From: Symbiodinium sp. CCMP2592 | Lineage: Eukaryota > Sar > Dinophyceae > Suessiales > Symbiodiniaceae | Assembly (NCBI GenBank): GCA_905221615.1 | Contig: CAJNDT010000513.1 | Location: forward strand, 806,001 to 870,000 | Reading direction: 5' to 3' | DNA: 64,000 bases | Shown: piece after piece, positions 12,515-62,403 of the stretch | Layout of the letters: each line of letters starts with the position of its first letter | Position numbering within the stretch: the first letter of the stretch is position 1 | Notes under the pieces: generated by a model | The model's input: the letters and a program-made list of their open reading frames with translations, nothing else | The model's database searches: none | Told to the model about the DNA's origin: nothing | Position numbers and translations under genes: made by a program

Positions 12515-12583
12515 TCACTCGCCCTCGGAGTCGGAGTTGGTGCCCATCGGATTGCAAATCTCCCGGTGGAGCTCCAGGGCCTG
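12515..12583 (-). CDS. Candidate terminal exon with stop codon
   Basis: After the acceptor AAATTAG the frame reads QALELHREICNPMGTNSDSE, then GE and a TGA stop. It is 69 nt, phase 0, and matches the phase-0 end of the exon at 14103-14160. Confidence 0.6.
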   Translation of the reverse strand, partial: QALELHREICNPMGTNSDSEGE

Positions 12584-15500
12584 CTAATTTGCTCAGGCTT
12601 TAAGGTACGGGGCTAAAGGGTTAAGGGTTCAGGGTGAACCCCAATGACCCTAAGCCCTCAACTCAAAAGGCTAAAACCCTCAATCACCAAAAGCCTCAAC
12701 CCCCTATGACCGGAAACCCGCAACCCTCGCCCCCAAGCCTAGGCCCCTCAACCCTGAACCCGAAACCTTACAGGGACCATCGCTTTTGGATTCAGGTCCC
12801 AGGGGTTCAACTTGTTAGGGCTTCGTTTCTTGTTCAGGGCTTCCGGATCTTGAAGTGAACCCCGGAAAGTTGGAACATGGGCTTGGGATGATCGGTGCTA
12901 GGAGCCTTTGTGCTTGACCTCAAGGGCATCAGGATTATACTGTTCCAACTTTAAAGCTTCTGCTATGGGATTTTGGAGTTTCCGAAAATGGGGCGCCCCA
13001 ATATAGTACCCCAAAATAGTAGGATCCTTATTATAAGGACCCCAATAGAAGGTACCCCTAACCTTCCGAAACTCCCATTTTGGGGCTTAGGCAGGGAGGA
13101 TTTGTGAACCGGCTCCGAGCTGGAACATTCACGCCAAGCCTTGTCCAAAATTCGCTGGTGCTTCCTCGGCTGAAAGGTTGAGGGTTTAGGGTTTAGGGTT
13201 TAGAGTTCAGGATTTCATCCCAGAAACCCTATACCCTGAAGCCACAGTTGAACCCCTCTGCAGAACTTCGTCACTCAGCCGGAAACCCCGACAGGCTTAA
13301 ATCCCAACCCCCCCCCCCGAAGCGTAGCCCTAAACCCACGCCCCAAGCCGAGGCTCTTGAGCCTCTTGCATGCTCCGAGCCTTTTCTTCTCGATGCCCTC
13401 CAGCACCTGGGGTGGTGTCTAGGGCTTAGGTTTAGGGCTTAGGGGTGCGGGTGCAGGGAGGGGGGGGGAGGGGGCAGTGCGAGGCTCTCTTGAGTAATTA
13501 GGTCGTGCGTCAAATTATCTGGGCAGTTCTCCGAATTGGGTCCCTTTTGGGGTACTTTTTCTCAGGCTGCCGCCTTATACAGAACTCCCGATCTTACAGA
13601 ACTGCAGTTCTTGCGCCACCGCGCAAGAGAATATGACAGCCCAGAGACTCCAATATCCCTTAATTAAGGAATATTCCTTAAATCATATTAAGGATCCTAT
13701 TATAGTTTAGGGTATATTCCTTAATTAAGGGATATTGGAGTCTCTGGGAAGGCAACTTCAAGCTCTCAAATCGGGCTTAGGGTGCGAGGTTGTTGTTTAG
13801 GGTTGAGAGTTTAGAGTTCAAGGTTTCGGGTTTAGGGTTTAGAGTTCAGGGTTTCGGATTTTAGGGCTTAGAATTCAGGGTTTCTGATTTTTTTGGGCTT
13901 AGAATTTGGGGTTTCGGATTTTTGTGGGCTTAGAATTTGGGGTTTAGGATCCTGGGGTTCAGAGTTTAAGGTTTCGGGTTGCAGGGTTTAGGGTTTAGGG
14001 TTTAGGGTTTAGGGTTGCAGGGTTTAGGGTTTAGGGTTTCGGGTTGCAGGGTGCCCTGCGGCACCCCTCGCTTTTCGAAGTCCAAGGCGCATCGTGGCCG
14101 ACTCGCGTCGTCATTTCGTGAGCCAGGTGCTTGTCAACGGTCTCCTTCAACTTCCCCAACCTGAAATGGTATAGAGTTCAAAAATCTAGGATTTTAGGGT
14201 TTGGGGTTTAGGGCTCAGGGTTTAGGATTTTAGGGTTTTAGGGTTCAGAGTTTAGGGTTCGGGGTTTAGGGTTTAGAGTTCAGGATTTAGGATACTAGGG
14301 TTTAAGGCTTACGGTTCAGGGTTTAGGGTTTAGGGATGGGTTGTAGTTTGGGGCTCTGAAAAGTATTTATGAATAGGTACCTCTAAAGGAACCATAAGGG
14401 AAATTCAAAAGTTTCCCAAGCTGCCACCTCGTGATTCTGCACGGACAGTGCGAACACCGGTTCAAGGTCTAGTTTAGATTCCGGGCTTTCGGTGTAAGGG
14501 CTGCGTTTGAGGCTTAGGGTTAAAGTCGGGGTCTGTCGTTTCCGGTTTAGGGTTTAGGGCCGTAGGAAGCCTGCGCCCGAAATCCTGCAGCTCCAAGGCG
14601 CAACCCTTCTGAGCCCTTGTATAGTGAACCCCAGAAAGTTGGAACATGGATTTAGGATGATTGGTGCTAGGATTCCCTCTACTTTAAACCCTAAACCCTA
14701 AACCCTAAACCCTGGGGAGCATGAGGATCATAATGTTCCAACTCTCTGGCTTCTACAGTAGTCATGCTTGACGGAGCCCCGAAGGATTCTTTTCTGTGCT
14801 CCCTCTACATCATGGCTCCTACAAGGATGCCTTTAAAGGGACCCTGCAATAAAACCCAAAAGTACCCTTTTGAAGGGGCCCTGTCCTAGAACCCTCTACT
14901 ACCCGTTAAAGGACCCCTTGCAGAATCCTTTAAGGGCGGCCTTTAAAGGAACTGGGCGAATTGCGAATTCCCGAGGCCCCCCCCCCCCCCCCGCCCACCT
15001 TTTCTCCAGCAAGTCCCGGAAGAAGATCGCCTGCTCCATCAGCTCGTAGGAAGCGTCCTTCAACTCATGACAGTTATCCCTACTATAGGAACCTTACATT
15101 CTACTGTATAGATACTTTGGCGCCTTCGGTATTGGGATTCAAACGTTCGGAAGAAGAGTGATTTGGGTTTAAAGGGTTTGCGGGTTTGCCGGTGTCAGAG
15201 CTGTAAGATATGAGGTGAAATGCTGAGGGATTGAAATTTACAGTACTAGTAGGACTTTGGATTTTTGTAGGGTTGTGGTGCTTCCGGTGCAGGGTCATGG
15301 AGCTTAGGACTTTGGTTGAAGGTCCCGGCGCAACTCTCGATCCGACCCTTTTATAATTTTGGGCTGCTGGCTTCGACGACTACTACAGGGGCCTTCACAA
15401 TTAGAATAGGATTTTGAGTGATATTTTTGGTACGGCCCCCATACAGTGAGAGTCTGTGATAGGGCTACTATTAAGATCCTACTATATCTATACTATGAAC

Positions 15501-18500
15501 ATTATTCAACTATTACTGAGTGGGGGCCGTACCTAAGTGATATTATACTATACATATTTAGGCCCCTAAGGTACCGCATTTGCCCGCTCACCCTGCAAGA
15601 TCCTGAAAGCCCTCACCGAAGCGGCTCTGAGGGGGCTTGGATGCACAGCTCGAGTCTCGGTTTCGAGGGAATGATCTACACACCTATTTAGGGTTTGGGG
15701 TTTAGGGCCTATGCTATACACACATACATATCATAGGGTTCGTCTACTCGGATTGGGTTGCAAAGCTGACCTTACAAGGGCTTCGAACGGCCATGGTGGG
15801 AATTGCAATTGGGCTGCTGCTGGCGGAAATTGGTGCTTCTATAGAGGTTTAGGGTTTAGGGCTTAGGGTTTAGTGGTTGCTTGGTGTTTCTAATTATGGA
15901 GGGCCTGTGTATTGCGAGGGTTGCAACTCTATAAACGTAATCCTTGGTGTACTATATGCCCCCCCCCTTAGAACCACAACAAAAATGAGATGTTTCCTAT
16001 TCTCTTGGGTTTTATGTGAACAAAAATCAAAAATAACTCCTAGGGAGACTATAGTACTCACTACACGAAATTTGAACCCGATTCCACCCCCGGTCCGCAT
16101 GCAGCTTGCGAAAGCGCATGCCAGCCATGTCCGTCTTGGGCAAGGGTTTGAAATGACCTCAACAGGTACATTTTTTGATGCGTTGCGGTTTGGGCTTCAA
16201 AGTCACAGTCAGACTAAGCCAAAACTCCAAGCACGCACCGGAGAACAACCCTCCACAAACTAGAAGGCTAGCTAAAGAAGCCTAGATGGAGTGACAGTGG
16301 ATATGTTTGCATGATCACCTGAACATGAAAGTCACAAGCAGGGTGCCTGAAGGAAAATCCTGCTGACGATGCAGCCCCACCGGGTATTCACTCTGGGCTA
16401 CGTAGATATTACTTGCGAATCCGAAGTGTCAACTTTAGGAAGCTATTGCGAGGCCATCAGTTGATTCTTTTACTATCTGACTACAGAATCCTCTCTCCGT
16501 CATAAACCCCCTTTCTCCCTTTTTCCAGTCATGGGATACACCCTAAACCCTAAACAAGGTGTCGAGTTTAGGGTCAACCCGAAGGTCACACTCGTAAACT
16601 CAAAAATGCCAGGCGTCGAATTTTTTTTTTGCTCTCTAAACCTTCAACCCTTGCCGGACTTAGAGCGTAGTGCTTTGGGTTTAGGGTTTAGGGCTCCCAA
16701 GACCGAAATTGCTCCCAAAACCTCAAATCCTCAATACTACAGCGGCCTTAATAGCTAGCATAGCTAGTTTTTCGGGGACATCGTATTGTCGAACAAGAAC
16801 AAGAAACGGAATCCTAGGAATAGCCCTACAGTAAATTCAAGCAGAATATGTAAGGAACCCTCAGGAGTACTAGTAATCATTCAGGCTCCCCCCACAAACA
16901 AAAACAAAAAAACGTGACGAGTCGCCCTTCACGCTGGCTAGGAACTCCTGCGGTGGTGTGGCATTAGGCTTGCAAGCATATAGGAGTATAGGATTAAGCA
17001 AGGGTTTATGAAGGAGCTTGTTGGGCTATATGAGGCTGCAAGAAAAGGTTACGGATTGGCATTTCAGGGTGGCATTTCAGGGCTTGCGGTTTGAGGGGAT
17101 TTCATGAAACAAGTGACTCTTGAAACAGTCAAAGGACCCTTATTCCAAAAGCCCTTCCGAAAGAATCCGGGCTTGTCAGATCATATCAGGGAATCTGCGA
17201 AAGTCCCCTCAGCCCTCAACCTTTGCAACTAAACCGTAATCCTTAAACCCTCATCAAACGGCAACCCTTTCAGCCTAACATATCACGCCCTTCATGCGTG
17301 GCTTGCAACATGCGGGCGTCCTATACATGTCTAATTAAGCCCAAACCCCTGAATGCTAAACCCGAAAAGTCGCAAACCCGCGATCACGAAGCGTTCGGCT
17401 CCTTGGCGAACTGGATTTGTTCCTTCCCGCTGCCCGGCAGCCCTTTTCCTTCAGTGGTTACCTGTTCAAGCAGGTCTCTTTTGCGGGAACCAACAGTGCT
17501 GTAAGGGTTTTTCGGCCGTTGGGGCTGTCATGGACTTTAAGAGGACTATAGGGTCTAAGGTCTTAGGGGTATCGAAGCCTTGGATATGGGCGTTACCTGG
17601 TATGACCCGACTGTTGAGCGCGGGTCCTTTGCTTCTGAGGCGCTTATGTTCGGGCGCTTCTCGGGGTTTCGTTGCACTGCACACCGACGTACACAAATAT
17701 GGACACCTACATGTACATGTACCATACATGCACAATACGCGTAGAGATACGTGTACATGTACATACAATACACACATAATGAACACCCACACACCTATAC
17801 ACATGTACACGGAGACACATACACAAAGCGAAAGGCTCAAGCACTGGAGCTCGATAAAGCACAACATAACGAACCTAAGGTTACACAGTGCACGAAGAAA
17901 GCATGGCGCAGCGATGCACGTAAAAGTAAGGAAACCTAATGAAACAACATGACGCAGCACAGGACAAACTACAACAACCTGCATAATGGCGAAATATGCT
18001 GCACAATATTATTGCCTATCAACGCATTGCCAAGCACTGAACTATTGCTCAACTAGTATTGCGCTGTCAAAGATGAGTGCCCAACAAACCCTGGACCCTG
18101 TCCCAAGGCCCTTAACCCCAAACCCTAAACCCCAAACCTAATCCTAAATAAACCCTAAACCCTATACTTTGAACCCTGAACCCCAAACCCCCCAAACCCC
18201 CCCAAGGCCCTCAATCCCAGAACCGGTGCGCTGGGGCCTCCTCACCCGGCGCGGCCTCCTGCGATCGGGAGCCCTCATTTTCTCAACCTGCTACCTTTCG
18301 CAACATCCCCATCTAGCTTCCTCAGCACTCCTTGAATACTCAGGGTGGCCCGTCTTCCTACCATTCAGTTTCAATAAGGGGACTCTAAAACAGAAAGGGC
18401 AAAATAGTACTACTCAGGAAACTAGTATTATAATCATAGTATAATATACTCCCAAACCCTATTTCTAATTACTCGGGCCCCTAGATTCCGCAACATCCCC

Positions 18501-21500: not shown

Positions 21501-24500
21501 GCCTACCTGTCGGGTTTAGGACTTTGAAGTGTGCGAATGCAAGGTGTAGATTTTAGGATTGTTGCTCTTTTGTGTTGCGTAGCCTTCGGCTGGGGTCTTG
21601 GGTTCTAGGCCTTCGGGATCATACCGTCATAATGCTATCAGGGCAGGCGGCTTATAGCCGGAGCAGGCCACGTTGACGTGCACGAGCTTGTTGCGATGCT
21701 CGACCAACTCGGCTGCCTGTTAATCTTCAGGTTTACGTCTTGTTGCAGAGGCTCCTGCAGAAACAGGTTGGGGCTCAGAGTTTAGTATTTGGGGGCTGAG
21801 CTTTGCAAAAACACCGCATTCAAATTAAAGCATCGCCACACCCTACATTGACACCATTTTTGAGACCCTTTAATGAAACCCTTTAAGAGCCCCGAAAAAA
21901 GTCCATAAAATTCGTCCGCGTCCTTACCGCCTAAGGGCCCCAGGCTTCCCCCGGGAGCCTCGAACTTCACCTTGCTCTCCTTCACCGGGTCGAAGCTGCT
22001 CGCCAGGAGGGTCCCATCCTCTGGGCCCCAACGCGCGGCTTCTCGGGCTTCTTTGCTTTAGGGGTACTATATTAGGGTCCCCTAATCAAGAAACTCCCAC
22101 TTAAGGCTTAAGGTCCGCAAGGAGCCTCAAGCCTTGAGCACTGACCACATCGCGGTCCTTGCACTGGTCGACCAAAGACACTGTCACAGATGGAGCCTCA
22201 CCGGAACTTCTGAGACTTGTTGGGTGTATGAAGGGTGGAGATGTTTACCATCGAAGCTCCGACCCCAAGACCGACCAGAGGAGGGACTGGCTGTTCAGGA
22301 TTCAGACTGCACCTCGACTACGGCTGTTGTCTCGGAGTTTTTCCATGTTGCTGTGTGGGTTAAGGGCTTCATCAGGGAAGCACCCAAATAACAGGGTTTT
22401 GCGGCCCGAAGGCCCTTCTTCTGCAAAGCTCTCTTCGAGGCTAGGCTGATTTTGGGTTTAGGGTTTAGGGTTCAGGGTTTAGGGTTTATAAATTTAGGAT
22501 TTAGGGTTTAGGGTTTAGGCTTTGGCGACTGCAAGGTTTACTAGGTTTATTATAGACACAAAGCTTCGAGGCTTTGCGGGGGTCATGCAACTGGGGGGCT
22601 CTGGCAACCGTTTACGGTTCAATGAGCTTAAACTCGGTTTAGGGTTTAGGGTCAATCATCCCCTGGAGTGATAGTAACATGATACGAATCCCCTGGAGTA
22701 TAGCACCAAGGAAAGAGAAACACTCCCTAAGATCTGAAACAGAACAAACTCTCTTGGAGTTATAGCATATTAAGCAGAGCAGAGAATTCCGAAGAACACT
22801 CTGGCGGCCGCAAAAGGTGGGATGCCGGTAGGTGGGATTAAGGATCCCTTATACAAGGACTCTTCTTTTGGGATCACCCCACCTACCTTCATCCCAGCCT
22901 CGGAGCCCTTTACCCCAAACCTCAGACCTTAAACCCTGAAACCCTAAACCCCAAACCCTAACCCCAAACCCCAAACCCCTAAACCCTAAACACTGAAACC
23001 CTAAACCCCAAACCCCAAACCCTAACCCCAAACCCCAAACCCAAATTCGAGGCCCCTGAAGACTGGAAGGACCATGCGTCCACGCGCCTGGACCTCCAGC
23101 GCCTCGCTGTCCCTGCGCAGGCAAGCGAGGATGTTGAAGAGTCGGAGTTTTAGGGTTTTAGGGTTTACGGTTTAGGGGTTTAGGGGTTTGGCTCTTTTCG
23201 GTTTATGTTGAGGGCCCTTTCAAATCTCGTTTGATGGCTCTTTTAAGTTTCTGTTGAAGGCCCTTTTCCTTGGCAGCTCCGTCTCACAGGGGTTCAGTCA
23301 ACTCTTTAGGTGTTGGTTTAGTACTCCACCTGGGCCTAGAAACTTCAACAGCGAACTTCTGTACCATAAACAAACGACTGCGACAAATCACTGGGCCCGA
23401 ATCTTCATATGGGAGTTTTGAAAATAGGGGACCCTTGTATAGTACCCTAAATAATAGGATCCTTATTATAAGGACCCCCAAAAAAGGTACCCCTCATTTT
23501 CGGAAACTCCCATATCAGCCAACAAGCGCTGCAGCGCTTGCGGCTCGTTTAGGGTTTAGGGTTTAGGGGATCTCCCACCACCCTCCCGTAAGTATTTTGG
23601 GTTCGACGCGAGTTCCGTGCTTCCGACATGGTTTTGTGTTGTGTCTAAACCCTAAACCCTGAACCCTAAATACCAGAGATTGCTGGGTGGCCCAAGGAGC
23701 ACCCACGGTGCAACACACCCCGAAGCCTAACTACTGCAAGCCCTGAGACAAAATCGCAAGCCGCCGAGCCCTCGTTCGGGATTTTGCGTGTAAGACTACC
23801 CTATCACTTCGGAACAGTGTAGTAGTGGCCACTTAGTAGGCAATGGCATGGGCACAGGTCTGCTGATTGTTGAAGCTGAGGATACTTCAGGCCGTACCCC
23901 AACTCCTCTAACCCCAAACCCTAACCCCATAAACCCTATAAACCCTATAAACCCTATAAACCCTACAAACCCTATAAAGCCTATAAACCCTATAAACTCT
24001 GTAAACCCTAGATTTAAACCCAAACCCTAAACCCCAACTCTTCCAAGAGCCGCCGAAGGGGTCCAAAGCGCCAGGAGCAGGCCTGATGCTCAGGGCTCTC
24101 CTGTCCTTGTATCCCCACCATCCGGGCTGGCATCCTGGCATGCTACGCGGTTTAGGGTTTAGGTTTGTTAAGGAGTTTAATTTAAGTTAGCATAGCAACA
24201 TAGCAGGGATCCATAGTAAAAAAAAATGTGGTTTCCTTATTATGGTAACTTCAGCTAGATCCCTTACCCGGTTTATGGGCCTGCCTTGAGACTTGAGGTC
24301 TGGCGTTTGAGCTTCAGTTTTGGTACAGCCTGGTATGCCATAGGCCATAGGCTTTGGTAAGGATTCATACCAAAAAGGTGTTCTAAACAGCCGATGGCCT
24401 CTTTAGTCTTTTACGGGCTTTACAAGGGTCCGTCGCGGAAGATTCCTGATTTCAAGGAGGCCGCCTTCTTGTGGAAGAGAGCAGGAACTACTCCTCTGCT

Positions 24501-27500
24501 GCAAGTCTTTTGCATGGCTCTGCCCGTCACCAACCCTAAACCCTGAACCCCAAACTCTAAACCCTAAACACTAACACCCTAAACCCTAAACCCTGAACCT
24601 TAAACCCTAAACCCGAAACCCTAAACCCAGCACTGCCCGTCATGCGTCGTGCACAGAAACCGAGTCTATGTGTCCACACGCCCTGCTGTAAGGGGGTTGG
24701 AATCATTAGAATAAAGTTATTTTGGGGTATATTATGCCATAATTATAATAAGGAATTATACTTATCATCATAATGGTGATAATAACGATAACAAGAAAAA
24801 TAATGACAATAATATTAAAAATAGTAATAATGGGGACTCCCCAAAATAGAAAAAGGCAGCTAGTAAGGCCGCTTTATTGCATGGAAAGGGTTGCCTTCTT
24901 TGTTCACCTCCAACTTCTGGGACTTCTCCTTCACCACTTCGCCCTTGACGTCCAGCCCGCAACGGAACCTGCAAAGGGCTTCATACGGAGCCTAAATGGG
25001 AGTTTCCGAAGATTAGGGGTACCTTATTTTGGGGCCCTTATGATTTAGGGTATATACTACATTAAAAGGGTCCCCTTTTTTCGGCAACTCCCAAATACTA
25101 ATATCCTATTCTGGGCCCCAAAACCCTATTCTAACTGTTCAGGCCCCTATATTGGTGCGCAGAGGTGCTGTGCTTTCGCTGTCGGGTCTTCCCTGCACGA
25201 TCTAACTCCTTTGGGTTTAGGGTTTAGGGTTTAGGGGTTTAGGGTTTAAGGGTTTAGGGTTTAGGGCTGCTTCGTTCTGATAATACTTTTCGCGAAGGGT
25301 GTGGTTAGCGCCTCGTGGTCTGACCCCAGACATCCTAGACTGTGAACCGAACCCTGGTCCTGGGGCAGGAACCCTGAGCCCTAAACCTTAGACGCAAGAG
25401 CAAACAGAAACGCAAACCAGCCCGCAAGGCCCTAAACTCCAAAAAAAGCTACAACCCTGGATACCCTACACCCTCAACCCTACCAAAGCCCACTAACAAC
25501 CCTACATCCTATCTCAACTGTTCTAAAGCGCATTTAAGCCCTGTATGAAAACAACCAAAAACTAAGAGCAAGGAGTCCCGAGCCGAGGGGCTCCAAGACG
25601 ATGGCATGTCCTCCACGCTTTAGGGTTCAAGGCGGGTGACGATGAAACTCTAACGTGTTCGGGTTTAGGGCTTGAGGGTTTTATAAGCTCTACAAGAGCC
25701 ATACACTCCTTGAGCCCTAAACCCCAAACCCTAAAGGTTTTTTCGAGGGTTTGGGGTTTAGGGCCGAGCATGCACGCAGGGTTGTAGTCGGGCTTCAGGC
25801 TTCAGGGGTTATGCCTACGTCGGCCTTGACTGAGGAAGCATAGGCGCCTTTTGTAAGGGTTTAGGATTTAGGGCTCAGGGACTGTATGGCTCTTGTAGAG
25901 CTCATAAAACCCTTAAGCCCTAAACCCGAACACGTGAGAGCTTAACCGTAACCTTAAAATCCAAACCCGCACCACAAGCCCAACCACTCAGTAAACCCTG
26001 ACTGACGCATCCCCATACCCCACCCTGCCAGTCCCAAGCCCCGAAACGCACTTTGTAAGGCCTGAACACTTTGGACAAGGGTTTGGGGGCATAATATATT
26101 GCACTATAACCTTAAGACGGACAACGAGGGAACTCTCATCATTCCGACGGCCCCTTTTTGCTATGGGCCAGTCCTTTCCGCAGCCGCAGGGGGAGCGATC
26201 GAATCTCCTGCGTTCGATTCAGGGATGCATGTTCATAAGGTTTTGCATGGGTGTTGCGAGGTTTCATATGAGCTGTGCTTGTTTCTTCTGTTTCATAAGG
26301 GTGTCACACGGTAGCTTCGGGTCTCCAAATGTGTTTCTGAGGCGTGTCATGGGGTTTTGTGGGGCGGGCCGAAACAGATTTGGCTACGGGTTTTGGGAGG
26401 CTTGAGCTTATGATGATTGTATTAAACCCGAAACCCTAAACACCTAAACCCTAAAAACCCTGATGAGCCTCCAGAACCCTGAAACCCTAAGAGGCCAAGT
26501 CCGAAAAGCGCAAAACCCCAAAGCCCTAAGCCCCCAAATTTCGCGATCCTAAACCCGCAAAAAAGTGCAGCCACCAAAAAAAACAACGTAGTTCCCCAAA
26601 GACGCGCGTCCCGCTCGCCGCCCTCGGCCGCATCCAGCTCCACGCAGCCATCGCTGAGCTCGGGCTCTTCCGGAAACCTGGGGCCAGAAGTTTGGTTTCA
26701 AGTGTGGTGTGATGTTTTGTTTGGAGTTTGTCTACTCCAGAGTTCTTGGCTCAGGGTTCCTTTAATGGCTCCTGTTCCGGAGCTTATCGCTTGTCTGGGG
26801 TCTTATGAAGCCTTCAATCGCAAAATGAGCTACTATAATTGACAATCATGACACCATATACTATGTGCATCACGCTGACCCCTTCTCGCGATGCAGCGTT
26901 CTGCATGACATGGGTTTGTTTCTGGGTCCTTGTGGACCACTTTCAGAGCACGGCGGGACCAGTGGCGCCTCCGTAACATCCAACATCACCAGAACACTTG
27001 GGGAGTGTAAATCACGGCAGCAGCCTCGAAATCTCGATCTCGTCGACCCGAACGCTCGAAATCCCCCAATTTTCCGAACCCTAAACTCCCCAGGCACGGC
27101 ACGGAACCGTGAAAAAGACCGTCAGACCTCAACGCCTAGGCACACGCGGGCCGCTGCAATCTTAATCTTGTCGGATGAATCCACAGGCAGCAAGGAGGAC
27201 AGGAGCACATGGTAGAAGCCTGAGGGCTGCAGGCTTTATTTAGGGTTCCTGTTAATGGATTTAACTTAAGTTACCATGACAAGGATCTATAGTAATAATA
27301 GGATTTCTTTACTATGGTAACTTAGATGAAGGCTCTAAAGCCAACAGTAACAATGGGATTTCTATATTATGGTCATTTAGATTAGGGCTTTAAAGACAAG
27401 ATTCCGGTTAGGGTTTGGGGGAGGGCTCAACTGGCCGCCGTGCTGAGCTTGTGAAGGCAAACCTTGAGAGCTCTGACGCTGAGCCCTGAAACCCTTTAAA

Positions 27501-48500: not shown

Positions 48501-51500
48501 CGGAAACGCTACGCTTATGCGTCGCTTGGTGTTGTTGCGATTCTCAGCTGTCGTTGTAAGCTGTGACCGTGGCCTACGCCTACAGTGCTATGACCATGGC
48601 CTGCATCTACAGTACTGTGACTGCGACTTGTTGCCACTGCGTCATCTGCCGCTGTTGCATCTCGGGGTGATCCGCTCACGGACTCTGAGTGAGCTAAGGC
48701 GGCGGCGGCGGCAGACCTAAATATAGGAACTGGCGGCGAGGGAATTTGGAAGCTCTTTATGAGACGGGGTTGTTTCACCTGGGTCAAGCCTTCTGTTATG
48801 TTTATGCATAACAGCCCTGAGTCATGTGTCCGACACAGCTTGATCCTAATGATGCTATCCTCTGAAGGAAGTCTAACACCACACTCACCAAACCGAAGAT
48901 CTTTGGTTATACCAAGCTGGGCCTGCGCGTAAAGGGACAAAAGGAGAGGGGCTGTACCCTTAATCTCATGCGAATCAAGGACGCCCGGAACTCTCAAGTC
49001 CTGCTCCAATCCCATTATAGAGAAAGGTATGGTCCTGCTACCCAAGGTCTCGGTAGCGCCGCTAAGACCCTTGAAGGTACGATTGCCCTCAGGTTTAAAC
49101 CTCGTGCTGTAACCGAAGTTCGCAAGTTTCCCCGCCGCGTTTGCTATCCAATCGCTACCGTGAACAGTCGAGTTACAGCCCTCATCCAACACGGCGTATA
49201 CGTGCTTATCCTCGTAGATATTTACTACGGGCAAATCAACCAAAGCCGGATGGATATCTGTGACCCCCTCAGTGAAAGCCACGAAGGCGTGCCTCGTCGC
49301 GGAGGCCCTCGAGGAGCGCGATCTCGCCGACGCCACTTCCCAACTGTTGTTGGTCGATGGCGCAGAGTGATCGTCTAAGGCCTCTTGCAGGTATGCGAGA
49401 AGGTCACCGCGGGATATCACGGGCTCGGTTACGAAGTGACCCTCTATGGTCTCTTGAAACTGGGCAATAGCCGGAACTACTACCTCTACGGGGAGGCTAT
49501 CCCCCGTGCTGCCGACTATGCTGCGCAGAAGATCGAAGTCCAGGGTGTTGGACTCCCGCAGCACTGTGGCTGCGTCATCCCTAGCCTTTCGCTCGGTCTG
49601 CGGCTGCTCATCTAGAAGCATCCCACAAAGCTTGCACTTAATGCGGGAGGTCTTCCTACTGCTACCCGACCTCTCGGTGGAGGTGTGGGGGCATGTGGCC
49701 TGATCTATGACAGGCTTCTCTTTCTTCGTCTTGGTGACGGTGCCGCATTTCTTACAGGTCCGCATGTCTATGTATGCGTTACTCCCCGACTTGTTGAACT
49801 CCTTGCAACCTCCCCGGCATTTCCGGGGGCCTTCGCTGGACGAAGCAGCTGACGCGGCGAGGCGAACCTCGGGCTGGAAGGGTTCAGGCGGGGGTTCCTG
49901 GCTGAGAGGGATATCCCTTCTCGTAATGCTAATGGGGTTATCATCACGCACATCAAAGTACTCCGTGACCCAATCCAAGAAGTCGGCCAAATTTATGGAT
50001 GGGCACTTCTGCGTGCGTCCCCAAAGAACATACCCAGGATACGTATACAAGACACGCTCATAAGTCAGACCCTTATGCTGACCAAAGGAGAAAACGCGAT
50101 CGGAACCCTCAGGCGGGCTGTCACGCATGATCCTAGCGGCGGCTGTGCGCCGAAGCTGTGGTGAGAAGAGGGTTTCATTGCCGCGGCCTTTGCCGGTATT
50201 GGTCTTTGAGGGAGTCAGCTCAAGGTTGGCTGGGTAACCCTCGAGCCTACCAGCGCTCGCATTCGACAGATGGACACACTCTGTGTCATCCTCCTCCACT
50301 GCGGCGAAATACGCCTGAGGCTTCGGCGCCGCCGACTTTGCGGCTGCATTGGCAGTTCCCCCAGACTGTGCTGGGGTTGCGGTGCCCTTGGAGCCATTGC
50401 CCTTACCGCTAAACTTGCAGGCAGCATCTCCGGCCCAATGGCCGATCACACCGCACTTCAGGCACCTACTCTTTGCCTTAAGCTCTGCTAACTTGGCCTT
50501 ACGGTCAGCAATGGTCAAATTGCTACGCACGACCTTCCCTCCGGATTTTCCGGGGGACTTGCCCTTGTTCTTCCCCTTTCCTTTTCCTTTCGCCTGGGCA
50601 AAGGCGGTCTGTGCCGCGTACGCAAGCTGAACTGACTCGGCATAGGAATCATCCAAATCGTCAATCTCAGCTTCATATGCCACTGCCGTATAGGCGTTGA
50701 GTTGCAATGCTAGATCCTCATCATCAATCCATTCATCCGCATCATCTCCCCCAGACGCTGTGGCCTGGTATGCTTCTTCGCCGTAGCCGTCACCGTAGCC
50801 TTCCGCGGATTCCTGTTGTTCCTGGTAACCATACTCTGCGGCACTACCATCATACCCCATATAGCCGAACTTAGGGTATTGGGGCTTAGCGTCGAAACGT
50901 CTCCAGGCCTTACCTGGGCCACTAGGGTCCTTCTGGGTAAGAAGACGTTCCTTCATGTGCACCACTGAGTGATGCTGAACAAGGACGCGTGCGTACTCAT
51001 CCACGCTGTGTACGCGGGCGGCGGTCTTGACCATTAGCTGCTCGGACCTTTCCAACCCTGAAAGCTCAACAAGGAGATTAGCCCTCATTGCTTCAGAAAG
51101 GCGGATATCAGGATCCAGCTCACGCAAGGTCGACCACCACCGCTTTCGGCGGGCTATGTAAGACAACATAGGCTCGCCAGGTTGCTTTGCAAGTGGGCCC
51201 GTCAGGAGCTGTCCCTGACGGAAAAGTTCGGACGCCTCTTCGGATTGAAGAGGGAAGGCTTGCCTCCTGATTTCTTCTATCAGGTAGTCGACGCCGTCAT
51301 GGCGAAGCAGACGTTCCAGGCCGACGTCGCGAGCGATGCAAAAGGCATCTCCTCGGAGACCCTCTAGGATCTTGCTAACGCATTCGCTCATGTCGAGCGA
51401 CTCGTCCTTGACGTCTCGCAAGGTGTACACCGCCGGATCTGTGTCCGGCTCTTGCTCATCGTCGCCCGCCACTTGGCTGGGGTGCGACGGTAGCGACTCC

Positions 51501-54500
51501 GCATCCTCATCTTCTGCCTCGGACGCGGGCTTAGTCCGTTTTGCGCTGGACGGACTGGCGGGTATACCGCTGCTCGCATCGCCCTCTGTGGGGGATGCAC
51601 TGGTCCCTTGACTGGCCCTGCCACGCCACTTCCTTGGTGACTCGCTCTTTGACCTTGCTGACTCGGCAAAACGCAGGTCCTTCAGAGCTTCTCGCCGCTG
51701 CTTCTCCTTATGCTGCAGCACACGGATCTGTGTCCGGAAGCACCAATCGTGGAAGCCAGCAGCCGACCCGTCGTATATGTACGAGCCGCTTTTGGTTTCT
51801 GCAGGGCTCAGGTTCTGTGACCAGAGATTGGGCTGGTAACGCAAACCTGCCACGCTCATGGCTTCGAGGATAGAAGGGGCCTTTGCGCCGCGACTATCAC
51901 TACTCTACCCAACGGACCCCGGACCACAGGCTCAACGGGGGTGAAACACTAGTGGTTGTCCTCACAGCTCCGCTACCAGTTTGAAGCAGGAACTGGATTA
52001 GTGAGTGTCCAACCACACAAACGAGCACACTTTTGGTCTGAGCCCAAGACGTCTGTCGAGCAGGGTGCGTTCAGAACTAACACAAAAACTACGCTCGCAT
52101 GAGGACATGTCAACACGGCGCTTCAAGACAGGGAAATTTCACACCCCTAAACCCTAGACCCTAAACCCCTAAACCTAAACCCGAAACCCCTAAAATGGCT
52201 TGCAGCCCCGGCATCCTCCCTGAACACTTCCCGGTTTTTCACCTCTTCGTCCCCCAGCGGAACTTAAGGATCCGGCCGCAGGTGCCAACGAACGCCTAGG
52301 GCCGCTGCAACCCTGAGAAAGCCACGACCAAGCTCATGCCAATAGTCCCTTACTTGGAGGATCATGGGACTTAGTAAGTATGGCTATAAGTACCTTCATT
52401 GGGGTTATAAGTAGTTACAAGTATAGTTACCTTGATAGTAACCCTAGTGACTAAGTCCCATGATCCTCCAAGTACCCAGAAGGGATCAGGGCTTCTGTTC
52501 TGGGTTGGGGGTGCAGAGGTCGGAGCCTGCCGAGGGGCTAAGGGTTTACCCATAGGCTCCATAGTAGTTCCTTTTTGGGACTACCTTCTGGGGTTCTAAA
52601 CATGAACACCACAGAGGAACTAGGTGCGTGCGCAAGATTTGGAGTTCAGGGTCAAGCAAGAAGCCCAGGAATATGTCGGTCCCTTTTTGGGTCCTTATTA
52701 TAATACGGCACCTAATATTTAGGGTACCCAAAAAGGGGCCAGAATTTGGACAACTATCCATGCCTAGAAGGAAGCGCCCTACAAAAAGTCTCGCTCCTTC
52801 CGTCGTCAAAAAGCCAGGACAGATCCTCTTCCGCCGTGCTGCAGTGGTCCTGGATTGGCGGCTCAAGATGGAAATTCTGGACGATGACGGCAGCACGGCA
52901 TGCTGACAGTGGAAGAGAAGGTAGAAGAAGAAGTACTAGTAGTTGTCGTCGCCGTAGTAGTAATAATAATAGAAGTAGTAAGCGTTGTTGTTGTTGTAGC
53001 GTAGTAGGAGGAGAAGAGGCAGTAGTAAAGGTGCTACAATGGCGACCACCAGAACCACGGCCACTACCGCTGCTGCTGCTGCCTCTACTGTTACCAGTAC
53101 TACTTGCTGTATACTATCACCAGCAACACAACTGCCATGTGCAAAGCCCGCCCGCATTCTCACATCCCGAAGTCATGTCCTACCCAAGGCAGTCACGCGA
53201 TCGGATCATGATGAGCTCTTATACCAAGCTCCCCCGAACCCGTGGCTGGTGGGGTCTAGGGCTCGAGATGTTATGCATCGGGTCTGTTCAATGCTATAGC
53301 TTCATGGCTAACTTCAATCGATGATCGTTGTTGATGCCTGTAAGTTCCCGGCAGAAGCACCCAGAGTGGAGTGGACTGCGCAAGGCCATCAAAATCCGGC
53401 TGGGTTTGAAGACATCTCTTTCTGAAGCCTTTCTCACAGAAACGCCCCTTGAAGTCCAAGAGTCCCCAAAGCATCCAAATCCAATCACCCCCCTTCTCCC
53501 GAAACCCTAAACCCTAAACCCGAAACCCTAAACCCTAAACCCTAAACCCTAAACCCGAAACCCTAAACCCTAAACCCCTAAACCCTAAACCCTGAACCCT
53601 AAACCCTGAACCCTAAACCCTGAACCCCGAAACCCGGTCCGTGTAGTCCGATTCATCAAACTCGCCTTTGAGAATTTTGTTCACTTCGTAAGACCTGTCC
53701 GGAGGATCCTTAAAGGGCTCCTTTTAAAGGGATCTATAGGGGTGCTATAAGGGGGTTTAGGGGTACTTAAAGGATCATGGGACTTAGTAACTAGGGTTAT
53801 AATTAGGGTAACTATACTTATAACCCCAATTAAGGTACTTATAACATTAGCCTCTACTTGGAGGATCATGGGACTTAGTAACTAGGGTTACTATCAAGGT
53901 AGCTATACTTATCAACTATATCCCCAATGAAGGTACTTAAAACCAGACTTACGAAGCCCCATGATCCTCGAAGAGGGGGGTCCGGGTCCGGCTTTGTGTC
54001 CCTGCAAGAGCCTTGAAACTGCCAGGGTTTAGGGTTTAGAGTTTAGGGTTTAAGGCCTAGAGTTGAGGGTTTAAGGTGTAGGGTTTAGGGGTTTTGGGGT
54101 TTTGGGTTTAGGGTTTTTTGGTTGCGTTTCGACCTTCAACCCTGTAGTCCGAAAAACCCTAAACTCTAAACCCTGAGCTCTGAACCCCCCAAGCGAAACC
54201 CCCCTGTAGAAAGGCGCAGCTTCGGTTTCAGGGTCTACCTGGGCCTCACCGGCTTGGGGTCGTTAGCCCATTTCCGCGTTTCGATAGGCCGTCTACTGGA
54301 GAACGTAGGTTCGGCGGAGGTTTTCGGAGTTGAGGGATTCGGGATTTAGGGGTATAAGGATGCAGGGCTTTTTTCGGATTCAGGGTGCAGGGTGTAGGGG
54401 TTCAAGGTTTCGGGTGATGTCTGGAGTCTTGCAGACTTCAATTTTGAGCCCGCGACTCGAAGAACGAACCAAAGTGCGCCAAGCTGCCAGGTACTGAACC

Positions 54501-56205
54501 GCTCCGACAGCTCCTTGTAGCCTTTGATGGTCGGGATGCTTCGGGGGCATCTCCCTGGCTCCTAAACCGTAAAAACGAAGCCTTCCTAAGTGCACATGAA
54601 AGGTTGAGCGGTTGGTCTGAGTCTTGGGAGGTTTCGGGCGCAGAGCTTGGGGATTAGGGATGACAGGCTGGAGTTTGACAACTCCGTGGCTTTAGTCTCT
54701 AAGCTTGAGGAGAGACTCCCAAGGACCCCTAAACCCTGAACCCCTAAGCCCTAAGCCCTAAACCCGACGCCCACATTGGACCCAGGAACCGCCTTTGGCA
54801 TTTTCCATGTCTTGCAGCTGCTTCGAGATCACCTCAAGCTCGGCCTGCACCTCCTTGTTGCTCCTCTGAAGATGGGTTTAGGGTTTCATGGGCTTCAGGG
54901 TTCAGGGTTTAGGGTTCAAGGTTTCGGGTTTAGCAGGGTTTCAATTTTTTTTGGGGGGGCCTCCTTTTTCCGACTGCAGACAGGTCCCAGTAAGAAGGGT
55001 TCAGGGTTTCGCGTTTAGGGTTTCGGGGCCTCCTTGAGGGTTTACTGGGAGGGGGACCTGTTTCCCCAAAAAACCCCTTGCATCGACAACCTTTCCTTCA
55101 CTTACCTTTGGTTAGTAGGGAATGGAAGAATGGTAGTAATAGTAGATATGGGTTTAGGGTTTAGGGCTTAGGGGAAGAATGGTAGTAATAGTAGTTATGG
55201 TTGTACCCCATTCCTCCATTCCCTACTAACCCAAGGTAAGTTCAGAGCCGGGCTGGGGGCTTGATGGGAGGCCAAAAGGGGGGTTTAAGATTTTTGGGGT
55301 AGGGAATCCTTAATATGACCCCTATTATGGGAACCCTAATCCCTACTAAACCCCCATAGACTAAAACCCCTTTTGGCCTCCTATGAGGGTTCTCTTGGGC
55401 TCTGAGCGATTTTTGTCTAAGCCCAACATCCCCGAGGGTCCTCTCCGCGCTCGTGTCGGTCCGAGTTTAGGTCTTCTCGGCTCTGGGGCAGAGGATTTCG
55501 AGTTTAAGGGCTTTGGGAGTTTAGAGTCTTTAGGCTTAGGGCCGGGCCACGAAAGATACGGAAGCCCGAGAACCTCCATCAAACCACGAAGCCCTGTTTA
55601 AGGTTTCGGGTTTGGGGTTTAGGACCGGCATGCAAGCCTCTACCTCTAAGAGCGTGGACAAGCAGGCCGGCTTCTAAAGAACGTTTTGCGCTCTTTTTCT
55701 CTTTGGCCTTAGGGGCTTGGGGAGAAGATTTGAGGATGGCAGAAAAAATGACAGGAGACAAGCATGAAATCAAAGGCTAACGATGTGGGAGTTTCCGAAA
55801 ATAGGGGACCCTAATATAGCACCCTAAATAATATGGTCCTTCTTATAAGAACCCTAAAATAAGGTACCCCTAGTTTCGGAAACTCCCATGTGTTAAAAGG
55901 CCCCAAGGCCCCTTCCTCAGATCTTCGAATCACACCCCCCAGTCACGGACCCAAGGAGCTTCCGAAGCTTAGGATTTAGCGCCTAAGGGGGGGCCTTTGG
56001 GTTCGGGGTTGCAGGGCCCATTATACTGCAAGTATAATAAGGAAACCCCCCAAAATAGTAGAAGTAGTTATTATAAGGCCCCTCTATTGGGGTTTAGGAC
56101 GGTCTAGGAGGTCGGGTTGAGGCCTGAGCTTCTGAAGACCAAACTTACCTTGGGTTAGTAGGGAATGGAGGAATGGGGTACAACTATAACTACTACTACT
56201 ACTAT

Positions 56206-56292
<87 letters not shown>

Positions 56293-59200
56293 CACTCTTC
56301 CATTCCCTACTAACCAAAAGCTCCTCGCGTGCATCTCGTGCAGACGGTCAGACTGGTCCCGATGCAGCTGGTGCTGAAACTTCTCCTCGGGGAAGTGCTT
56401 TGCTGGACTTTGAAGTAACCAGGGAGAAAAAAGTATAGACTTTTATTTCATAATGGTTCCTTTAAGGAACAGGTACCCAAAAAAAATGTTCAAGTATGGT
56501 ACTCCAAACCCAGGTTTGAGGGCTCTTCAGGGCAAAGCTCAAAACTTGAAACCCCCGAAAGCGTAAACCCTGAGACCCTGAGCCCCAAACTACAAAACTC
56601 TTCAACCCCAAACCCCAGAACATAAACCCTCCACCCTCAACCCCAAACGCAGTTCGGGCTTGAATTTCAAGCCCTCAGCCCGAAACCTGCTTTGCTGATG
56701 GCTCGGCCGATCTCTGAACGGGACAACGGGAAATCGGAAACTTACGGGGTTTGAGACAGTTGTGCTTTGGGATTTAGGGTTTAGGGTTTAGGGTTTAGGG
56801 TTTAGGGGGGTTTCTGGTGTCGGGTATCATGGGGAACTAAAGGTTAACCTTTTTTGGTTCTGTAGGGATTATATATGGACTATATTACACAAAAAATGTT
56901 AAAGGTTACCTGCTCGACTACTAGGGTTGGGTTTTCTGGGTTTGCGGTTTAGGGCTCTGGGCTTAGGGTGCAATGCTTAGGAGGCAAGGCTCACAGTTTA
57001 GAAGTTTAGGGTTTACCTGTAGCCGAAAGGACCTACCTTTTTAAGGAACTATATATAGAAACCATAATAAGGAACCCTAGACAGGTGGTCTTTCCGGCTG
57101 CAGGGAGGTCTACATCAGGGGCTCAAGAGCTTTAGGGTCTATAAGTCGAGGCAGTTTTGGGTGCAGCGTGTCTGGTGTCTTCACCAAAGCCGACAGCCTC
57201 AGTTCGGGCCCTAAGCCGGGCCGTGGCTTCGAGGCACTCAAGCCTCTTGCAGGGCATTTAGGGTTTAGGGTCTTGAGTTCTTACTACCCCAATAAGCCAC
57301 CGAAATAAAAGCTTAAACTTTCCGATTCCTACCAAACTATAATGACCCAAGAACTTTAAAGGTTAGATATTGGGGATCTAAGAGTCTTGCCCCAAACCCG
57401 AAAACGCCACACCCTTGTGGAAGGAATGATTGCCTATATCACCTCTTAGATCTTCGAGCTCAGATCAAATTCCCTCTCAGGGTTCCTCAGCATAACCACA
57501 CTGCCATACACCCCAAACCCCAACTCCAGTCAGTAAGACGCCTATATTTGGGCGCCTTCGTTCGGGAACTATCCTAAAGGAACCCTTCAACGAACCCCTA
57601 AGAGGAACCCTTAAAGGAACCTCGAAAGGAGCCCTTCAGGGAACCCCGAGAAGAATCCTGAAAGGAAGCCTTGAAAGGAGCCCCTAAAGGCGAGCCCTTG
57701 AAGGAGCCCTTCAAAGGAACTCCTAAAGGAACCTCTAAAGGAACCCCCCCTAAGCTTGGCGGGGCTCCAGCCCAAGCATATCTGCAGTCTCCGTCCCCGC
57801 CTTCGACTGCACCTGCCTCGGTTCGTGGTGCCGGGTCTGGAGTTCAGGGTTCTGGGTTTAGGGTTTCAGGTTTAGGGTTTGGGGTTTAGGAATTAGGGTT
57901 TGGGTTTTTGGGCCTAGGGTTTGGGGTTTACCGGTTTGGTTCCTTGGATTCAGGGTTTAGGGTTTGGGTTTTTGGGCCTAGGGTTTGGGGTTTTCCGGTT
58001 TGGTTCCTTGGGTTCAGGGTTTAGGGTTTGGGTTTTTGGGCCTAGGGTTTGGGGTTTTCCGGTTTGGTTCCTTGGGTTCAGGGTGCAGGGTGTAGGGTGT
58101 AGGGTTTCTGGTCCAGGGTTTAAAGCCTGAGGTTCCAGGTGTAGGGTTTAGGCTAGAAGGGTGTAGCGTTTAGGCTAGAAGGGGCCCCCACCCTGTCATA
58201 GTGGTATAATAGGAATATAATAGGGCCCTAATATAATCCTTATAGTCACTATTACAGGTGGGGGGCAGCTTCTAAGGTTTAGGCTTTAGGGTTCAGGGTG
58301 AGGGGTTTAGGGTGTGGGCTTGCCCGTGTGACATTCAAGGCTTTCTTAGCGCTGAATCACGCACCCCGAAAGCGGTCAATATGAACTGGCTATGGAAATT
58401 GAAAGGACCCTTCCTTTAAAACTGTGGCAGGTTATGGCGAAGACCCAAGACTCAAAACCCCTGGAAGACCCCTGCTGTACGCCATGTTTAAACCCGGAAG
58501 CCCTTCCAAACCCCTTGGAAATTCTCAACTATGGACATTTGATGTAAGCCTTGAACACCCCAGGATAGCCCTCGAGGCCTTACACCCTTAAAGGCTTCAG
58601 GGCGGAAGGCTCAATACGAGGGCGCCCCTTCATCATGAAAGCTTTAGGGGATGAGGTTCAGACCTGAAAAACGGTGGGAGTTTCTCTGCTTAGCCCAAGA
58701 GGACCTGCATCCTTCGAAAGCCAAGTCTCCATCTTTCGATATGGCGTCGCTCATCTTCATAAGACCTTCCCAACTGCTCCTTCTGCTCCTTTCAGGACAT
58801 GCAGACGGCTCAGGGTCTAAGACTCACACGGCTTGGGGGTTTGATCATGATCGGCTTCAGACTTGATGTAGATCGGCTTCAGACTTAACCCAAGTCGACC
58901 CCAAAAGCCCTGTCTCGCGCCTTCACGTTCGTGGTGTTCCGGTTGCCACTGCAGGGCCAGCCCACGAAGAAGATCTGCTTGAAGCCCTGGGGTTCAAGTC
59001 TTCGTGCCCTGGCTCTACGGCTCAGGATGCTTCCAGCTCTGAGCCCTTAAGCCTCTACTTGGAGGATCTTGGGACTTAGTAACTAGGGATTACTATTAAG
59101 GTAACTATACTTATAGCTACTTTTTACCCCAATTAAGGAACTTATAAGCATACTTACTAAGTCCCCATGATCCTCCAAGTACCCTGCCCCCCAAAGCCGG

Positions 59201-62200
59201 GGAGGGACTGACTAGTCGACAAGCTCAGGAGCTAGTCGAAGAGGGCGCGTCTCATAGATTCTTTCTTGATCGGCTCTGTTCCCGCAGCTCAGGGTTCGGG
59301 GTTTAGGGTTCAGGGTTTAGGGTTTAGGGTTTAGGGGTTTAGGGGTTTAGGGGTTTAGGGTTTGGGGTGTAGGGTCAGAACTCACAAGGTCCCGGGTTTG
59401 CGGTTTTTGGGGGGTTTAGTGCTTTGCAGTATGGGACGTGGGGAAAGTTGATGTTTCCGCTGTGTTGAAAAACCATGTAAAGACACCAAAACCCCAAACC
59501 GTGAACCCTAAACCCTAAAATTAACACCCTGAGCCCCAAAACCCTAAACCCTGAACCCCTAAACCCTAAAACCCTAAACCCTACAACCCCTAAATCCTAC
59601 AACCCTTAACCCTAAAGCCCTAAACCCTGAACCCCTAAACCCTACAACCCTGAACCCAAACCCTGAACCCCAAACGCTAAAACCCAAAACCCCTAAACCC
59701 AAACCCTGAACCCCAAACGCTAAAACCCAAAACCCCTAAACCCAAACCCTGAACCCCAAACGCTAAAACCCAAAACCCCTAAACCCAAACCCTGAACCCC
59801 AAACGCTAAAACCCAAAACCCCTAAACCCCTAAACCCACAACCGGCAGGTCCCCAGCCTTCCTCTGCGAACACTCCCAGAAATCCGCCCAGGCGGGGCCC
59901 GCGGACCACTCACCCGTCTCCTGAGCTCGAAGGGTTTAGGGTTTAGGGACAGAAGCCCACGTAGGCCAAGCAATTTTACCTCAAATTTGGCAGGGATCCT
60001 TAACATCCCGAATTAAGCATATTAACATATTAACATATTAAGCCATACACTGCCATACACCTTCAGCTACAGGGGGATCTGAAAGGGATTTCCGGTGCTG
60101 CCTGATTAAGGTCTTTTGACGTCTCCTCAACTCCCAAAGCTGGGCAGGGATTGCAAGAAACCACGTTCCGAAACATGAGGCGCCTACACATACAAGCGAA
60201 CAGAAGTCTGCATCTGCATCTACCGAAAACCGTATGGAAGGCTAAACGGAACCCTTAAACCCTGATCAACCCTAAAACCGCAAACCTCAAAACCCTGAAC
60301 CTAAACGGCTCGTTATGGTTTGCCGGTTGGGCTTTGGGGCTGGAGTTTAGGAACTCGGAGGACGATGCAAAGCCTAGGAATTACGGCAAGTGAGGTCTAA
60401 AGCGGTCTTAGCAAGGAAGATGACAACTCAAGGTTTGTACTGGAAGCTGTGGATGCTTCCATTTAGACACCCCAGACATTCAGCCCCTAAACCTCGAACC
60501 CCCAACCCGAAACCCTAGTCGGCGGATGTCCGACATCTTCTCGTCGCACTTGTTGACCACGACGATGATGTCCTTGTACTTCCCTCGGAAGCCGCGGTTC
60601 AGGGCTTAGGGCTCAGGGCTTCTTGGGTTTAGAATTTCGGGCTAATCAAGACACCGCACTCTCCAGAAACGCTCTCTTGCTCGGGCTTCAGGTGTCGCAG
60701 CCAGTGGCTCGACGCGAGTAATCCCACAAAGATCCCCTGTATCGGTTCAGGCTCTGGCATTTAGGGCGCTGGGGTTCGGAGTTTGGGCCGAAAGCCATGA
60801 AAACTTCAAGAACTGGCCAAGATTGAAATCTGGGCGGATGGGTTGGGCAAGAGCACCGGGGTGCAGACCACGAGACATTCTCGGAGGAGGGCACAAACCG
60901 CAAGCCGTGGGCCCCGAGCTTAAAGCTAGAGCACCGAAACCCTCATCGTTATATAAGGGTTCTGACGAGATAGTGATAGGATGCCTTTCCCGAATAGAAC
61001 TCTGGCATAGAGCCGTTCAAAACTCTATCCTAATTACTCATGACTCATGCCCCTGCAACGCCCACCAGACAGACCGGTTTGGGGGCACACCAGGAATCCA
61101 GCCGGGACGCTGCCTGCTTTCTGCAGCAAGCTAAACGCATAGTGCTTGGAGTCAAAATCTTTCGGCTCGAGGATGACGACTGGAATGACATTCTCCTGAG
61201 ATCCCAAACTTTGTACTGAAAGGGCTTCATGAAGTCTTACAGGATGGTAAGGTCTTTATAAACTCCTACATGGGTGTTATGGGTAAACCTCTGATGCAAA
61301 ACTCCTTTACTTTTTCACTATGCTATGGTGTGAAGATTGAATGCCATCGCGCAGGGTTAGACTTGAAACTTTCGGAACAAGACCCTATGAAACCGTATAA
61401 ACACCTAAAGACCGTCTGAAGGCGTCACAACATTCCGTTTACCGAAGCAACTACACCCTCCACACACAGAAAGAGCCTCCCACTGACGTTCAAACCAAGC
61501 CAAAGGCGGAGGAGGGGCATGCTTCAAGCGCTCCAGGATCATCCGTTCTGGCTCCTTCGTGCGGTTGCTTTAGGATTTGGGGCGACAAGGTTCTGCAAGG
61601 GTTCTAGGAAACAACTAACGATTGTACAATATAGGGTTTTGGCGTTTGCGGAGTAATTTTCGTGGCTGTGTCACAGACAACATCTCTCTGTCTCTCTAGC
61701 AGGGTTCAGGGTTCCATAGGATCCACTACAAGTAGCACATTCTCAGGGGTTCTACAAAGGGTTCATGAAGAATTCGGCACGGGCTTGGGGCAATTGGAAC
61801 AAGGCTCGTCGTCTCCATCTTTCATTCCCGGCATGTCAGCAATGATCATCGAAGACTTGATGTTCTTCCAGAGAATCTTCACTGACACGGCCTGCAGACC
61901 AGGAAATATGGCTGTTCGAAACGATGGCTTCCTTATCAGGCAGCTGCACGATAAGATCTCTACTATTTGGGGACGTCTGGGGTTCCAAACATGGGTCCAC
62001 GCAACTCGACTGGCATATGCGGCGAGGTTCTCGGAGGAACATAGGCTAAGATGGATGCTTGGCGGCTTGGCATCTCAGCTGGCTAGCTACTGGAAGCCAG
62101 AAAACTCCGAAACATCTAGAAGCAAAGCGCTAAAAGGGAAAGGCCTTCACCTGCAGCCAAAAACTCCAACCCGCCCTCGGCGCAAGTTGGCCTCGTGCTT

Positions 62201-62369: not shown

Positions 62370-62372
62370 GTG

Positions 62373-62403
<31 letters not shown>

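Follow-up and report, generated by a model that had tools for sequence, protein, structure and literature searches.

A probable multi-exon gene scattered across about 50 kb of repeat-filled, dinoflagellate-type DNA and interrupted by a copia-type element

Introduction

The window analyzed here (a stretch of 64,000 nucleotides corresponding to C513:806001-870000) contains a region of about 50 kb that is rich in telomere-like TTTAGGG repeats and is dotted with short islands resembling coding DNA. Are these islands parts of a gene and, if so, of one gene or of several? A sequence-only reading had proposed a single split gene of roughly 50 kb hidden in the repeats. According to the analyses reported below, these islands very probably represent genuine gene fragments, scattered through some 50 kb of repeats and separated at one point by a mobile element. 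They probably belong to one multi-exon nuclear gene on the minus strand of a dinoflagellate-type genome, located inside a block of co-oriented genes, the transcript and its joins being predicted from the DNA.

Coding signal on the minus strand

Each segment of the form AG|G...G[T/C/A] was scored against its own base composition with a model that combined the amino-acid frequencies of average proteins with a preference for codons ending in G or C, and composition-matched counts were taken after removal of low-complexity peptides. The weight of the G/C-ending preference was chosen by us (0.5, 0.65, 0.75, and 0.85 were tried), and the main counts were obtained at 0.75. At LLR ≥3, the minus strand yielded 30 segments versus 16 for the plus strand, 10 for the reversed sequence, and 10 for the complement. 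The corresponding numbers were 20, 4, 2, and 1 at LLR ≥5 and 9, 0, 1, and 0 at LLR ≥8. Sixty local first-order shuffles of the minus strand gave a mean of 1.2 segments (maximum, 4) at LLR ≥5 and of 0.12 (maximum, 1) at LLR ≥8. Many short coding-like islands thus lie on a single strand, as had been proposed, but the proposed number of at least 25 is reached only with calls weaker than the 20 obtained at LLR ≥5. Three of these 20 were considered doubtful (61776-61891, 17386-17442, and 13342-13406), leaving 17 confident exons with a mean length of 75 bp. We therefore put the number of exons at about 17 confident ones of about 75 bp each, perhaps up to about 28.

The first exon chain obtained for the minus strand ran from 62248 to 12517, matching the interval 12515..62248 assigned to the split gene at the outset, for which no strand had been given; the proposal must thus refer to the minus strand. 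The features, in the order of that chain, are as follows.

62182..62248, minus strand, candidate exon, first called, EDLLKVMTEKNGSQGFKHEANL (LLR 8.2; acceptor accgag|G; own-genome match here only)
61776..61891, minus strand, possible exon, contains SSMIIADMPGMKDGDDE (LLR 7.5 on the minus strand; doubtful, as an overlapping open plus-strand frame, 61760-61893, scores 5.3)
61087..61195, minus strand, candidate exon, ENVIPVVILEPKDFDSKHYAFSLLQKAGSVPAGFLV (LLR 8.7; overlying plus-strand frame, 4.2)
60521..60583, minus strand, candidate exon, KYKDIIVVVNKCDEKMSDIR (LLR 12.4; best PDB match of this part, GTPase Der, E 0.25)
58890..58986, minus strand, candidate exon, GFKQIFFVGWPCSGNRNTTNVKARDRAFGVDL (LLR 8.4)
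56324..56385, minus strand, candidate exon, EKFQHQLHRDQSDRLHEMHA (LLR 5.2)
54806..54863, minus strand, candidate exon, SNKEVQAELEVISKQLQDM (LLR 8.6)
53619..53720, minus strand, candidate exon, contains SYEVNKILKGEFDESDYTDR (LLR 6.0)
39821..52143, minus strand, copia-type LTR element between two called exons (frames, RVT_2, integrase-like stretch, LTR pair)
39821..39984, minus strand, LTR copy, pairs with 51980-52143 (one mismatch, at 39901; edges read by eye)
39561..39661, minus strand, candidate exon, RQFSELDSHDRHREKTAELLKQDLFRIPLLASE (LLR 9.6)
36236..36299, minus strand, candidate exon, ILDVSLAAALARLFQHTQMEP (LLR 5.6)
34985..35086, minus strand, candidate exon, VIMRSVEKFLANSLHPLVDAPRPHTFQALSRNKL (LLR 7.3; the only match of the peptide in the 1.098-Gb assembly at E ≤0.001)
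31816..31865, minus strand, candidate exon, AYAKDLVRDLNKDRRL (LLR 5.5)
24881..24968, minus strand, candidate exon, FRCGLDVKGEVVKEKSQKLEVNKEGNPFH (LLR 9.5)
21959..22018, minus strand, candidate exon, DGTLLASSFDPVKESKVKFE (LLR 8.5)
21649..21716, minus strand, candidate exon, AAELVEHRNKLVHVNVACSGYK (LLR 6.7)
17386..17442, minus strand, weak candidate exon, outside the 17-exon set (LLR 5.0)
14999..15079, minus strand, candidate exon, DNCHELKDASYELMEQAIFFRDLLEK (LLR 11.3)
14105..14160, minus strand, candidate exon, LGKLKETVDKHLAHEMTT (LLR 6.0)
13342..13406, minus strand, weak candidate exon, outside the 17-exon set (LLR 5.1)
12517..12580, minus strand, candidate last exon, ALELHREICNPMGTNSDSEGE followed by an in-frame TGA (LLR 6.2)

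The G+C content of the 17 exons (419 codons) was.60,.31, and.82 at codon positions 1, 2, and 3, respectively, with AAG:AAA and GAG:GAA ratios of 33:5 and 33:6. Fourteen exons of a neighboring chaperonin gene (see below) had similar values (.62,.35, and.75; 25:1 and 23:3), both exon sets being partly selected by the model. The mean G+C content was.583 in the 17 exons versus.490 in the remainder outside the element. Lowering the weight of the G/C-ending preference to 0.5 reduced the strand contrast to 8 minus-strand versus 5 plus-strand segments at LLR ≥5, indicating that the coding signal is largely a third-position bias.

A cruder codon score trained on retroelement frames detected 65 plus-strand and 67 minus-strand segments at ≥5, i.e., no strand difference. 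Exon chains built with it gave a mild contrast in the left part of the region (155.6 for the minus strand versus 139.0 for the plus strand) and scores of 59.6 versus 47.5 in the right part, with 57.3 for the complement control. This model was discarded as too weak to separate the strands. A strand-free test of codon position classified 22 of 81 islands as strongly periodic versus 9.3 ± 2.8 in within-island shuffles; 15 of the 22 favored the minus strand and 7 the plus strand, a result that is supportive but blunt. The missing strand bias of the crude score and the small contrast left without the third-position preference would suit compositional accidents, but the composition-matched controls and the shuffles speak against such an origin.

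A gene on the plus strand was rejected on the basis of the composition-matched score. The exon chain computed without the element agreed (95.7 and 28 exons for the minus strand versus 15.2 and 13 exons for the plus strand), its acceptor weights being derived from minus-strand and neighbor calls, which biases the contrast towards the minus strand and leaves the weaker of the 28 members individually untrustworthy. No tRNA genes were found.

Exon borders and reading phase

An AG|G acceptor and a GT, GC, or GA donor were requirements of the search, and the borders are for this reason not independent evidence, although, under this requirement, the plus strand and the shuffles yielded many fewer calls. 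As cut, the 17 exons ended at GC (6 exons), GT (6 exons), or GA (3 exons) donors, and two ends were not at a donor. Each of the 30 minus-strand candidates at LLR ≥3 offered 4 to 17 possible donors, so exon ends are ambiguous, and 25 of the 30 offered donors in all three phases. Agreement in phase between neighboring islands had been put forward as an argument for the split gene. It carries no weight here, since 28 of the 29 adjacent pairs formed by these candidates can be made compatible if GT, GC, and GA donors are allowed, versus 28.7 when the order is randomized. If each exon is given only its best borders, 12 of the 29 pairs agree versus 8.2 ± 2.3 expected (P 0.075).

The starts of the confident exons were 302 to 6,897 bp apart, apart from a single 14,059-bp gap holding the element; the largest gaps were 14.1 kb (with the element), 6.9 kb, and 6.6 kb. 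True introns would be shorter than this spacing if exons were missed. In the last exon, the presumed protein end reads ...NSDSEGE and is followed by a stop codon, beyond which there were no further minus-strand calls at LLR ≥3.5 down to position 7300. A first exon, a start codon, and a spliced-leader site were not identified for the gene.

The copia-type element

The widest gap, between exons 53619-53720 and 39561-39661, is occupied by an LTR element that is about 12.3 kb long, is oriented like the exons, and accounts for about a quarter of the span of the region. It contains stop-to-stop frames of 2,719 aa (40126-48285, minus strand) and, upstream, of 1,129 aa (48515-51904, minus strand), and the idea that the longest open frame of the region is about 160 codons was consequently abandoned. 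The 2,719-aa frame comprises an RVT_2 domain (residues 2188-2428; E 6.9e-12) and, N-terminal to it, an integrase-like stretch (residues 1368-1490) with a weak match to a PDB integrase (E 0.022). The element also encodes a DUF488 domain (E 1.6e-11). The paired LTRs of about 164 bp lie inside a telomere-like array and differ by one mismatch, and this near identity suggests that the element was inserted recently. Inspection of the letters flanking the element suggested a 5-bp duplication, CCCCT, but this word also occurs in the telomere-like array around it, and the computed edges gave no duplication.

With its RVT_2 domain and its paired LTRs, and with a possible integrase stretch N-terminal to that domain, the element resembles Ty1/copia LTR retrotransposons, from which it differs by the DUF488 domain and by the presence of two frames in this copy. 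A search of the assembly for DUF488 returned at least 150 matches (150 of 165 candidates were scored), each above the cut-off. Among the matches listed, many were in open frames of about 3,930 aa, whereas the element of the window is split into 1,129 and 2,719 aa. Our literature search found no paper pairing DUF488 with a retrotransposon. Two other pieces of retroelement were observed on the minus strand of the window, one at 628-3231 with a weak RNase H match (E 9.5e-5, below the cut-off) and one at 63073-63903 that appeared copia-like by eye and had no Pfam match.

An element inserted in the gene, a 5' end that escaped detection, and the lack of a homologue are features that a decayed or never-translated relic could display. 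We nevertheless regard a relic as very improbable, since the element falls between exons and since the coding signal per codon of the 17 exons (0.300) is as strong as that of the chaperonin exons (0.277), exons having been pre-selected as open.

Copy number in the assembly

The joined peptide was searched against the assembly (1.098 Gb, 5,383 contigs). All 27 matches, from 29 scored candidates and down to an E value of 10, were located at C513:818518-868248 on the minus strand, and no paralogue or intronless copy of the gene was found by this peptide in the 1.098-Gb assembly, although remote paralogues may have escaped the search. At the DNA level, none of the 17 exons had a second copy in 264 kb of the contig, versus 45 of 170 random 75-bp non-exon pieces. 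Thus, as far as the contig and assembly searches reach, the islands do not appear to be dispersed repeats. Telomere-like heptamers make up 15.9% of the non-exon sequence, which would suit an origin of the islands from repeats, and 1.6% of the exons. Taking these searches together with the composition-matched controls, we consider it extremely improbable that the islands derive from repeats or from chance composition.

An open frame of 193 aa with a protein-like look was also observed at 18997-19575 on the minus strand. It had no Pfam or PDB match, and 15 further pieces of DNA in the 264 kb matched it, perhaps just via its telomere-like end.

Neighboring genes and the one-gene reading

As positive controls, minus-strand exons were chosen by eye from the lists of the same caller in DNA beside the window and joined. 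Sixteen joined exons gave matches to chaperonins of the GroEL type (best E 1.4e-22), in which the stretches reaching significance followed a collinear order. This chaperonin-60 gene runs from about 136.6 to 105.1 kb (window coordinates, outside the window) on the minus strand, spans about 32 kb, and has a gap of about 21.7 kb between called exons. It is similar to the candidate gene in strand, exon size, codon bias, border types, and wide spread, but it encodes a recognizable protein, unlike the candidate gene. Downstream of the window, at about -4.9 to -8.0 kb (window coordinates), the joined minus-strand exons of a second gene matched the BTB domain (PF00651, E 2.5e-10). The exon preceding this domain appeared MATH-like by eye, and GTGCAGGATGA was observed at both ends of one intron of the BTB gene, as in introner-style duplication. 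An exon-like stretch at 92779-93037 (window coordinates, minus strand) resembled part of the histone H3 fold, with a match to PF00125 (E 0.014) that did not reach the cut-off. Over the 264 kb, there were 101 minus-strand versus 22 plus-strand calls at LLR ≥5; calls in frames of at least 180 codons and low-complexity peptides were dropped from this count, and transposon pieces in short frames were kept. The candidate gene lies in a co-oriented gene block, and the named neighbors are on the minus strand.

The proposal of a split gene of about 50 kb stands in part. One or more split genes on one strand are well supported by the strand-specific codon bias, the dinoflagellate-type borders, the absence of the islands elsewhere in the assembly, and the neighboring genes of the same anatomy, whereas a single gene is the likeliest reading without being proven. 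The joins stay predictions, as the searches yielded no homologue and neither a paralogue nor an intronless copy that could confirm them. It is possible, if rather unlikely, that the exons are real and are divided among several minus-strand genes (at least two), whether side by side or nested. Phase is uninformative and no homologue spans the exons, so that nothing found ties them together. Nested genes are on record, with 4,898 (8.4%) in one Polarella glacialis genome according to PMC7245778. On the contig itself, exons resembling WD40 repeats (110.3-112.1 kb; match to WDR55 at E 1.4e-5, short of the family cut-off) seem to sit between the two parts of the chaperonin-60 gene, in its gap of about 21.7 kb, and a gene nested within the chaperonin-60 gene is therefore possible. 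Against a division, inspection of the region brought no internal terminal exon to light, and even the widest spacing of confident exon starts is smaller than the gap between called chaperonin exons. In the absence of any such terminal exon among those inspected, and with exons spaced much as in the chaperonin control, the simplest reading is that all exons likely belong to one gene, with predicted joins.

For such a single gene, a pre-mRNA of at least 50 kb would be transcribed from the minus strand, and the spliceosome would join its exons using GT, GC, or GA donors and AG|G acceptors, the exact joins being those predicted. The repeats and the LTR element would be spliced away, and translation would give a protein with the C-terminal end described above.

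Protein identity

The joined peptides had no match in Pfam, and the joined peptide gave nothing significant in PDB (E 1.1 and 1.6 at best) or in NCBIfam (E 0.18). Six short peptide patterns revealed no homologues in IMG/VR, and a Pfam scan of two minus-strand frames of 52100-62500, with stops as X, detected no family. In the exon encoding KYKDIIVVVNKCDEKMSDIR (60521..60583), the sequence NKCD resembles the G4 motif of GTPases, a weak lead. DMPG followed by NKCD presumably reproduces the order of motifs G3 and G4, the DMPG stretch being in a doubtful exon. This order weakly suggests a P-loop GTPase, an assignment that we consider unlikely. No P-loop (G1) was seen by eye in the candidate peptides, and the GTPase-like part had PDB matches with E values of 0.25 to 0.66, GTPase Der being the best. 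A dynamin- or EHD-like GTPase, considered because of DMPG and NKCD, was rejected as unsupported, with no Pfam match and this same best E value in PDB. The product of the candidate gene would be a dinoflagellate-type protein that these searches matched to no known family.

Telomere-like repeats at exon flanks

Exons of the 264 kb tend to be preceded by CCCTAAA-type words and followed by TTTAGGG-type words, i.e., by repeats pointing inwards. For exons with LLR ≥6, informative flanks had this inverted orientation in 32 of 44 cases when 60 bp were considered (P 0.004) and in 40 of 62 cases when 100 bp were considered (P 0.03); for exons with LLR ≥8, the fractions were 12/18 (P 0.24) and 15/24 (P 0.31), all P values being uncorrected. 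The 17 exons of the candidate gene considered alone displayed little bias within 150 bp (8 versus 6 before the exon and 7 versus 6 after it). Inverted telomere-like repeats at intron ends are accordingly a lead that is suggestive only. On the sense strand, TTTAGGG provides a donor (G|GT) as well as an acceptor (TTTAG|G), and any array that lands in an exon could thus be removed by splicing from the outset. That many introns spread as introner-like elements with inverted telomere-like repeat ends is improbable; if true, it would tie intron gain to telomere-like DNA.

Comparison with published dinoflagellate genes

In six dinoflagellates besides Amoebophrya, average exons of 99 to 240 bp, introns of 0.5 to 4.7 kb, and genes of 9 to 26 kb are listed in Table 2 of PMC10666404. 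The same paper reports GT and GC donors for these six species, GA donors in quantity in five of the six, and AGG acceptors in proportions of 80 to 97%. Co-oriented genes, GC and GA donors, introners, and a 26-kb intron are described for dinoflagellate genomes in section 12 of PMC11453091. The candidate gene shares short exons, G/C-rich coding sequence, and co-orientation with the intron-rich nuclear genes of Polarella, Symbiodiniaceae, Prorocentrum, and Amphidinium described in PMC11453091 and PMC10666404; its introns and its predicted borders (AG|G acceptors with GT, GC, and GA donors, as required by the search) would resemble theirs too. Its exons are short, rich in G/C at the third codon position, and on one strand, as in dinoflagellates, the score itself favoring G/C-ending codons. 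It would be longer than the published averages of 9 to 26 kb (PMC10666404, Table 2), partly through its 12.3-kb element. Since exon size, borders, intron richness, and co-orientation have all been published, the predicted anatomy is ordinary. It is from these traits, together with the telomere-like repeats, that the DNA is assigned to a dinoflagellate. By this comparison, it is the published norm for dinoflagellate genomes and leaves the general view of these genomes unchanged.

The candidate gene would add one more dinoflagellate-type protein to which the searches assigned no function. Gene calling by frame length alone would miss its exons here, and reading of the raw sequence can pick out very probably real micro-exons in a repeat-choked protist genome.
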